Assembly: GCA_017451145.1 (NCBI GenBank)
Contig: JAFSSG010000032.1
Coordinates: 1 to 14,777 of the forward strand
Source of the DNA: Clostridia bacterium
GTDB lineage: Bacteria > Bacillota_A > Clostridia > UBA1381
DNA length: 14,777 bases
Direction: 5' to 3'
Shown piece after piece: positions 1,788 to 3,491 of the stretch (its first letter is position 1; every line of letters begins with the position of its first letter). The notes beneath the pieces are model-generated. The model had not been told where the DNA came from. It saw nothing but the letters and a program-made list of their open reading frames with translations, and searched no databases. Both the position numbers and the translations under genes were made by a program.

Positions 1788-2051
1788 ATGAACAGAATTA
1801 AAACATTGATAACGAGAGATTTAGTAAACTGCGAGGGCGGATGCGGAGAATGTCAGACGTCATGCCAATCTGCATGTAAGACCTCATGCGGAGTTGCGAA
1901 TCAGCCCTGCGAAAACACGTCAAGGATAAAGACGCTTGTAACAAGAAATCTTATAAACTGCGAGGGCGGATGCGGAGAATGTCAGACGTCATGCCAATCT
2001 GCATGTAAGACCTCATGCGGAGTTGCAAATCAGCCCTGTGAAAGAAAATAA
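1788..2051 (+). CDS. scfA: SCIFF ranthipeptide precursor with two tandem leader-core units in one ORF
   Basis: This is a RiPP precursor of the SCIFF family (six cysteines in forty-five residues). It is recognised by the near-invariant CGECQTSCQSACKTSC core and by the adjacent dedicated maturase. SCIFF precursors are normally one unit of about 45 residues. This ORF has 87 residues and contains two complete units, residues 2-44 and 45-87, period 43. Each has a basic leader of the RIKTL.TR.L type followed by a cysteine-rich core. Cysteines are at 15, 19, 22, 26, 30, 34, 41 and again at 58, 62, 65, 69, 73, 77, 84: seven per unit, one more than the family name implies (extra Cys in NCEGGC). The residue after each TSC is Gly (35 and 78). 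There is no stop, ribosome site or ATG between the units, so this is a single polypeptide. The start is fixed by AAGGAG seven bases upstream. The mature product's function is unknown for the whole family; quorum-type signalling has been proposed. Confidence 0.95.
   Translation: MNRIKTLITRDLVNCEGGCGECQTSCQSACKTSCGVANQPCENTSRIKTLVTRNLINCEGGCGECQTSCQSACKTSCGVANQPCERK
1791..1919 (+). repeat. SCIFF tandem repeat, unit 1 (129 bp)
   Basis: This is the first of two in-frame direct repeats with a 129-base period. Bases 1825-1897 are identical to 1954-2026, a run of 73 bases covering almost the whole core. The leader-coding part (1794-1826) differs from its partner at 12 of 33 positions, mostly at silent sites. 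Confidence 0.95.
1920..2048 (+). repeat. SCIFF tandem repeat, unit 2 (129 bp)
   Basis: This is the second unit, encoding residues 45-87. After the 73-base identical run it differs from unit 1 at base 2027 (third position of an Ala codon) and base 2039 (third position of a Cys codon), both silent. Leader residues differ conservatively: Ile/Val, Asp/Asn and Val/Ile. Confidence 0.95.
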
Positions 2052-2114: not shown

Positions 2115-3491
2115 ATGATACACCAATATAAGCTGAACGGATATAACATTGTTTTGGACATTGCAAGTGGCTCTGTCCATGCCGTTGACGAGGTGGCATA
2201 TGACATAATCGGTATGTACGGAAAAACCGAAACCGACGAAATCGTAAAACAAATCACTGAAAAATACGGCATAACGGAAAAAGATGTTTTGTCCTGCATA
2301 GACGATATCGAAAAACTAAGAAATTCAAAACAGCTTTTCTGCGAGGATATTTATGCCGATAAAGCGGATATGTTAAAGAATAAAAATAACGTCATAAAGG
2401 CACTTTGTCTGCACGTTTCGCATACCTGCAACCTAAATTGCAGCTACTGTTTTGCGGGGCAGGGAAAATACAGCGGTGATAGAGCTGTTATGAGCTTGGA
2501 AGTAGGTAAAAGGGCGATAGATTTCCTTATCGAAAATTCAGGCGACAGAAAAAATCTTGAGGTGGATTTTTTCGGCGGTGAACCGCTTATGAATTTTGAA
2601 ACAGTAAAGGAAATTGTAAAATATGCGAGAAGCATAGAAAAGAAACACGGCAAGAATTTCCGATTTACCCTTACCACAAACGGCGTGTTGCTTGACGATG
2701 AAGTGACCGATTTTTGCAACAAGGAAATGAATAATGTTGTACTCAGCTTAGACGGACGCCGTGAGGTGCATGACCGTTTCCGAAAGGATTACAGCGGAAA
2801 GGGAAGCTATGATGTAATTGTTCCGAAATTTTTGGAGTTTGTCAAAAAGCGTGGCGATAAGAGTTATTACATAAGAGGCACTTATACGCATAAAAACACC
2901 GATTTTCTAAACGATATTCTGCATATGGCGGATTTAGGATTTAAGGAACTCAGTATGGAGCCTGTTGTCTGTTCGCCGGAGGATGAATGTGCCTTGACGG
3001 AGGCAGATTTGCCGATTTTGTTCAATCAATACGAGCTTTTGGCAAAGGAAATGCTAAAGCGTGACAAAGAGGGACGCGGGTTTACATTTTATCACTATAT
3101 GATAGATTTGGAAAACGGACCTTGCATATATAAACGCATATCGGGTTGCGGTTCGGGCACGGAATATTTGGCGGTCACGCCTTGGGGTGAGCTTTACCCA
3201 TGTCATCAGTTTGTCGGTGACGAAAAATACAGTATGGGCAATATCCGGGACGGCGTAACGAATACTACACTCCGCGAAAAATTCAGAAAATGCAATGCCT
3301 ATTCACGCAGTGAATGTCAGGATTGCTGGGCAAAACTCTACTGTTCGGGCGGTTGTGCCGCAAATGCGTATCATGCGTCGGGCGATATAGGAAAAGTGTA
3401 TGAATACGGGTGCAAACTTTTTAAAAAGCGTATGGAATGTGCGATTATGATGCAGGTAGATAAGGCGTTATCGGGTGAAAAAAATGATTAA
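2115..3491 (+). CDS. scfB: Radical SAM SCIFF peptide maturase (thioether-forming, SPASM type)
   Basis: This 458-residue radical SAM enzyme installs thioether cross-links in the SCIFF precursor; the characterised homologue is CteB. Residues 1 to about 95 form the N-terminal peptide-recognition (PqqD/RRE-like) region. The SAM-cleaving [4Fe-4S] cluster motif is Cys105-x3-Cys109-x2-Cys112 (CNLNCSYC). The SAM-binding GGEP motif is at 154-157. The C-terminal SPASM/twitch region supplies auxiliary cluster ligands, with candidate cysteines at 337, 345, 363, 393, 401, 404, 410, 414 and 433, including the ECQDCW and CSGGC segments. All expected cysteines appear present and the length is normal, so the enzyme looks intact. 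AAGGA lies nine bases before the ATG. It sits 63 bases behind the precursor, separated by a hairpin, and its last eight bases overlap the next gene, suggesting translational coupling to alaX. Confidence 0.96.
   Translation: MIHQYKLNGYNIVLDIASGSVHAVDEVAYDIIGMYGKTETDEIVKQITEKYGITEKDVLSCIDDIEKLRNSKQLFCEDIYADKADMLKNKNNVIKALCLHVSHTCNLNCSYCFAGQGKYSGDRAVMSLEVGKRAIDFLIENSGDRKNLEVDFFGGEPLMNFETVKEIVKYARSIEKKHGKNFRFTLTTNGVLLDDEVTDFCNKEMNNVVLSLDGRREVHDRFRKDYSGKGSYDVIVPKFLEFVKKRGDKSYYIRGTYTHKNTDFLNDILHMADLGFKELSMEPVVCSPEDECALTEADLPILFNQYELLAKEMLKRDKEGRGFTFYHYMIDLENGPCIYKRISGCGSGTEYLAVTPWGELYPCHQFVGDEKYSMGNIRDGVTNTTLREKFRKCNAYSRSECQDCWAKLYCSGGCAANAYHASGDIGKVYEYGCKLFKKRMECAIMMQVDKALSGEKND

Follow-up and report, generated by a model that had tools for sequence, protein, structure and literature searches.

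SCIFF peptides are widespread in Clostridia. The described systems (CteA/CteB and Tte1186a; TIGR03973/TIGR03974) combine a leader, a six-Cys core and an adjacent maturase, and PMC5300114 treats SCIFF as a system of one precursor and one maturase. In CteB, the recognition domain takes up the CteA leader as a beta strand, and a substrate cysteine is located on cluster Aux I (PMC6231123). The mapped SCIFF link joins Cys32, which is the fourth Cys, to Thr34 (given earlier as Thr37), and the same reports leave the active form of SCIFF open (PMC8326336, PMC8172795). In Clostridium beijerinckii, disruption of a ranthipeptide gene affects sporulation genes and the agr locus (PMC8102284). By analogy, possible roles of the double form described below would follow such reports on single SCIFF.

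Cyanobactin and cyclotide precursors involve other chemistry and dedicated proteases, and in some cyclotide precursors each core comes with its own copy of an N-terminal region. Both carry repeated cores on one chain, and in the microviridin pair AMdnA/AMdnC one enzyme, an ATP-grasp ligase with ester chemistry, serves three cores per chain; multi-core precursors are known, and they are termed rare (PMC5934393). For graspetide precursors, tandem gene duplication has been an evolutionary route, seen as separate genes or short intragenic pieces (PMC8939145).

Here, we analyzed a window of 14,777 nt, the whole stretch of DNA examined, from a Clostridia bacterium (GCA_017451145.1, contig JAFSSG010000032.1). 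The scfA gene in this window shares the leader, the six-Cys core and the adjacent maturase with SCIFF, and the mapped Cys and Thr are present in both of its units. It differs in having two leader-core units and a seventh Cys in each leader. Unlike AMdnA, it repeats the leader with each core, and in contrast to cyanobactin and cyclotide precursors it has exactly two units. Whole leader-core units are fused in frame, whereas graspetides show separate genes or short pieces. Within the open-licence literature, double-unit SCIFF is apparently an undescribed variant of the known SCIFF ranthipeptides.

Two SCIFF units in one reading frame

The features of the locus, all on the forward (+) strand, were as follows.

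1726 to 1754, +: sigma-70-like promoter ahead of scfA, TTGACA-17-TATAAT, 12/12 consensus
1775 to 1780, +: ribosome-binding site AAGGAG, 7 nt before the ATG, read from the sequence
1788 to 2051, +: scfA, double SCIFF precursor, 87 aa (ORF with TIGR03973 and PF13165 matches)
1788 to 1841, +: leader 1, residues 1-18, RIKTL type (core boundary set by the first CxxC)
1842 to 1910, +: core 1, Cys19 to Cys41, with Cys30/Thr32 as the mapped CteA crosslink pair by position
1911 to 1922, +: junction Glu-Asn-Thr-Ser
1923 to 1970, +: leader 2, residues 46-61
1971 to 2039, +: core 2, Cys62 to Cys84, with Cys73 and Thr75
2061 to 2085, +: terminator-like hairpin in the scfA-scfB gap (one found; expectation from shuffles 0.5)
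2115 to 3491, +: scfB, SCIFF maturase with PqqD-like, radical SAM and SPASM parts (TIGR03974, PDB 5wgg)

The preliminary description had read scfA as one uninterrupted 87-codon ORF with two leader-core units, and this was confirmed. The frame has an ATG start and zero internal stops, and both units are complete. TIGR03973 matched the whole ORF in two stretches (123.7 bits, E 1.9e-36) and the separate halves with 68.5 and 67.8 bits, each above the curated cut-off of 50 bits. PF13165 also matched in two stretches (E 6.7e-37). At the nucleotide level, there is one direct repeat of 121 nt with 88% identity and a spacing of 129 nt, or 43 codons. The cores differ at 2 of 72 nt (70 are the same) and are identical in protein, and the leaders have 33 of 45 nt in common, with 12 differences. 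The gene encodes 14 cysteines, six per core and one per leader, so that the six core cysteines of SCIFF are found in both cores. Since the precursor has 87 residues with two leaders and two cores, and not the roughly 45 residues with one of each that are canonical, it is a double SCIFF. With two complete cores in a single ORF, it is also a multi-core RiPP precursor. Both units contain the residues predicted for a Cys-to-Thr non-alpha-carbon thioether; those matching Cys32-Thr34 by motif position are Cys30-Thr32 and Cys73-Thr75. In a PDB search no chain matched the precursor, and the leader alone gave only a weak unrelated match (E 0.63).

Two variations in cysteine content were seen. The extra Cys of each leader lies in an NCEGG motif (1830-1832 and 1959-1961) and is common to most of the window's clade; L162 and P0001 instead have Gly at this position, and the sister double clade has Ala. 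Many single and double precursors (P0127, P0129, P0134, P0160-P0174 and others; L005, L147) carry Ser in place of the fourth core Cys. As this Cys is the only thioether donor that has been mapped, their crosslink must differ from that of CteA. Loss of this Cys was considered as a mark of the double form and rejected, as Ser occurs in 15 of 25 matched units of double proteins and also in 55 of 216 matched one-CxEC cores, a set biased by the query and including partial doubles.

The further claim of no stop, ribosome site or start codon between the units held for stop codons and in-frame starts and needs a small correction for the ribosome site, as a Shine-Dalgarno-like AAGGA is present at 1922-1926 within the Ser-Arg-Ile codons. 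No in-frame ATG, GTG or TTG was found at the window junction or in leader 2. The TTG that follows at 1936-1938 is out of frame; therefore, no restart at unit 2 was seen despite the AAGGA, and internal restart was rejected for the window. These three codons were absent from the junction and leader 2 in 13 of 17 double genes checked, and GTG or TTG codons occur there in the other four (L002, L006, L144, L145). Two separate neighbouring scfA genes were also rejected, since each adjacent pair with coordinates is one open frame. SCIFF matches lying apart (G333, G511, G404 and an extra copy in G301) are on different contigs.

A cleavage site at the junction had been proposed. The junction is ENTS in the window and EAGS, ESTG, ENTTG, ESVS, ESGKSG, ESKVS and others in relatives; it is short, polar and variable and reads as a linker. 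Comparison of the window with other double loci revealed no evident cleavage or protease motif. With this variability, a specific cleavage site received no positive support.

Maturase and gene neighborhood

The scfB gene begins 63 nt downstream of scfA and matched TIGR03974 with 756.2 bits (cut-off 425), placing the family's own maturase next to the precursor. Its radical SAM and SPASM domains were matched, and its PqqD-like domain scored 23.2 bits, slightly below the 23.4 cut-off. It matched PDB 5wgg, which is CteB (PMC6231123), with 563.5 bits. Five promoter-like sites were found in the region compared to 1.6 expected, and only that at 1726-1754 has the 12/12 consensus. The intergenic hairpin could keep precursor levels high relative to the enzyme. 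By loose criteria and with no control, such a hairpin was seen in 28 of 30 loci, single and double; L005 and L147 have none, and their intergenic gap is 1 nt.

An Orn/Lys/Arg-decarboxylase-like gene (PF01276) lies at 353-1729 of the window, and many lineages have such a gene directly beside scfA-scfB. Some have it upstream; in others it follows directly and often overlaps scfB. A specific tie to the double form was rejected: 15 of 20 double loci have the gene upstream, yet it is common at single loci (among 119, upstream in 17, downstream in 34 and without it in 68, many of which are short loci). A possible link of SCIFF to this PLP enzyme may deserve attention.

Distribution of the double form

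Twenty further loci with two adjacent units were found. With the window this makes 21, of which 20 were fully read and one, L074, is gapped by Ns inside the repeat. Searched against proteins, the 87-mer had 6918 matches; the 120 listed are 47-123 aa long, and proteins of up to about 152 aa could have been matched. Among these 120, 13 are two-unit proteins (P0001-P0010, P0012-P0014), with 8 core residues missing from unit 1 of P0013, and P0011 and P0015-P0019 look partial or broken. The second unit is broken in P0015, P0016, P0018 and P0019, which is either real or an assembly error. No three-unit SCIFF was present among the 120 listed of 6918 matches; judging from the scores, higher unit numbers would have ranked within them.

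In named genomes, the best 80 of at least 593 relatives (at least 596 stretches) include six doubles (L001-L006) and L074 with its Ns. Four families were picked because each holds a double form. Around L001, 8 of 61 SCIFF-positive genomes are double (70 searched), around L005 3 of 117 (130 searched), around L003 3 of 238 (297 searched; G003, G446, G301) and around L074 2 of 151 (196 searched; G609 and, with Ns, G007). An even class-wide sample had 322 SCIFF-positive genomes out of 391, and with the query genome excluded 3 of 321 were double (G072, G700, G849). Double SCIFF is rare. The preliminary description would have been overturned if double-length precursors were already common and described; these counts show rarity, and no description was found in the open-licence literature. 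A rumen isolate survey reports 224 (table) or 254 (text) ranthipeptide clusters, and the terms 'two core', 'duplicat' and 'repeat' are absent from its main text (PMC13289728). A scan of IMG/VR gave seven pattern-matching stretches and zero relatives, and the plasmid collection gave one record only, of 2.6 Mb from Acetoanaerobium noterae, covering 26% of the 1801-nt query.

Within genera, the form can be consistent. In the genus of G072, the closest to the window's ScfB, scfB is present in 8 of 9 genomes, and the same 8 all have double scfA. Only 2 of 6 genomes in the Parvimonas genus of L005 have any SCIFF, and both are double. In the genus of G003, 5 of 11 genomes have the double form. This genus also has another SCIFF, divergent and lacking some of the usual core features, beside its own ScfB (L097, L098, L140, L184), and the genomes with it (G004, G003, G446, G497) mostly have the double form as well. 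A divergent resident SCIFF occurs in 4 of the 5 double genomes compared to 2 of the 6 others, which is no more than suggestive of replacement of the resident SCIFF by the double form.

Origins of the double form

ScfB trees were used to follow the double form. The window's ScfB shares 96% identity with the L001 protein and falls inside a starred clade of nine double forms. In the larger tree, which took in 105 of 133 rows, the remaining doubles form a starred clade of five and a starred Peptoniphilaceae clade of three, with G609 alone, and 4 changes are required. In a 48-row tree, the clades of nine and five join (support 95), and 3 changes are required. Constraining all 18 doubles together in this tree was rejected with a p-AU of 0.0056, a value that rests on a quick and possibly non-optimal tree search. 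After G700 and G849 were added, 16 double rows formed one clade (support 98). Holding all doubles except G609 (L148) together was not rejected, with a p-AU of 0.75 and a tree 15.5 log units better than the free tree; therefore, the quick free search was not optimal. The 48-row and extended trees contain 30 hand-picked single forms, and long-branch rows (L011, L017, L040, L043, L062, L071, L072) were left out of the smaller trees.

The proposed check of whether double forms make up a clade thus gave a divided answer, with most in one ScfB clade and G609 apart. The separate position of G609 suggests at least two origins or a transfer for the double form, possibly only two. Both G609 units carry GIANQ and LC, as do its single-unit neighbours L007 and L057, as expected of a duplication in its own lineage.

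Exchange and selection between units

Unit statistics were calculated for 11 genomes of the window's clade; L074 (Ns), L183 (found later), clade b, the Peptoniphilaceae and the G609 rows were excluded from the pooled pS and pN. Between species, core pS was 0.760 for unit 1 and 0.725 for unit 2, with pN of 0.003 and 0.000. Within a gene, core 1 and core 2 differed with a pS of 0.227 and a pN of 0.002. Synonymous divergence of 73-76% between species compared to 23% within a gene indicates that the cores of the two units exchange sequence. The core was closest to its own partner in 9 of 11 genomes, the exceptions being L142 and L145, and this closeness was matched in 0 of 20,000 shuffles, which ignore relatedness among the 11 genomes.

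Leaders 1 and 2 had pN of 0.171 and 0.153 compared to pS of 0.620 and 0.676. The low pN relative to pS in the leaders and cores of both units shows purifying selection on all four. In L142 and L006, the fraction of synonymous sites that differs between the two cores is 0.69 and 0.63, respectively, with zero amino-acid change, so both cores are held by selection and not merely by recent copying. Given exchange between units, one would expect a fall to a single unit or an expansion to three if selection were not acting; neither was seen in the searched genomes of the window's closest genus.

Discussion

We propose, with a probability of about 65%, that scfA encodes a functional double precursor that docks leader by leader on ScfB and has both cores matured. 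An in-frame duplication of a SCIFF coding sequence, minus its stop and start codons, would have given a leader-core-leader-core chain. The RIxTLxTRxL leaders would bind one after the other to the PqqD-like domain of the neighbouring ScfB. By analogy with CteA, this enzyme would install a ranthipeptide thioether in each core, at Cys30-Thr32 and Cys73-Thr75. Gene conversion or unequal crossing-over would keep both cores alike within each species, and selection would maintain both leaders and both cores. Sequence data in favor are the two full units in one frame next to the maturase, the twenty further double loci, the constancy in the genus of G072, the exchange between units, the selection on both of them and the own-lineage double of G609. 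The strand binding of the CteA leader to CteB (PMC6231123) favors docking of both units, which we infer from analogy. The preliminary interpretation thereby received partial support, in two leader-core units on one chain next to a SCIFF-family maturase and in the constraint on both leaders. Counted against this reading are the damaged proteins (P0013, P0015, P0016, P0018, P0019), the cores of L142 and L145, which are no closer to their own partner than to the nearest foreign unit, and the 4 of 6 Parvimonas-genus genomes without SCIFF.

Two alternatives are special cases of this explanation. The first is that the fusion acts on dosage only, doubling the yield per translation start, with proteases freeing two identical monomers. 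The identical or nearly identical core proteins of both units fit this, as does the distributive processing of multi-core microviridin precursors (PMC5934393). However, dosage would allow three or more units, and the listed protein matches contain none even though near-identical 72-nt repeats should recombine. A conserved cut site at the junction was not found either, and a domain search covering seven of the window's proteins recognised no protease or transporter gene adjoining scfB. We regard a pure dosage effect as quite plausible, at somewhat less than even odds.

Another possible explanation is that the active product is an uncut, two-headed peptide, with selection fixing exactly two units and each leader used in turn along the chain. 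Each fully read locus (20 in all, with G609 as a separate origin) has exactly two units, the units exchange sequence with no change in number, and the linker is short and variable. On the other hand, the mature form of even single SCIFF is unsettled (PMC8326336). The independent origins are also few, so the constancy at two is a small sample. We know of no description of a covalently joined double architecture for ranthipeptides, and we consider this alternative rather doubtful.

It is improbable that only one unit matters, with the other drifting neutrally or decaying as a duplicate, or with leader 2 as a mere linker. The broken second units of a few metagenome proteins would fit, but pN is far below pS in both leaders and cores, and the anciently diverged pairs in L142 and L006 keep an identical core protein. 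Assembly duplication, which the near-identity of the window cores over 72 nt and the Ns in the L074 repeat might suggest and which the preliminary description had named as fatal to its claim, is refuted for the clade by the leader differences in the window, by the recurrence across the genus of residues specific to one unit, for example RIV in leader 2, and by the double unit in many independent assemblies and in a Parvimonas parva isolate with about 204-fold coverage.

Returning to the functional double precursor, this rare form is real and common to related species, and it appears to have arisen more than once; it looks like a working design and not an accident. It also illustrates that repetition of the leader along with its core is a route open to RiPP precursor evolution, here with the unit number apparently kept at two. 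The natural double precursor provides a built-in test, as thioethers and cuts can be counted on one chain. Such counts would reveal processivity of the enzyme, guidance of each core by its own leader, and removal of the leaders, if these occur.
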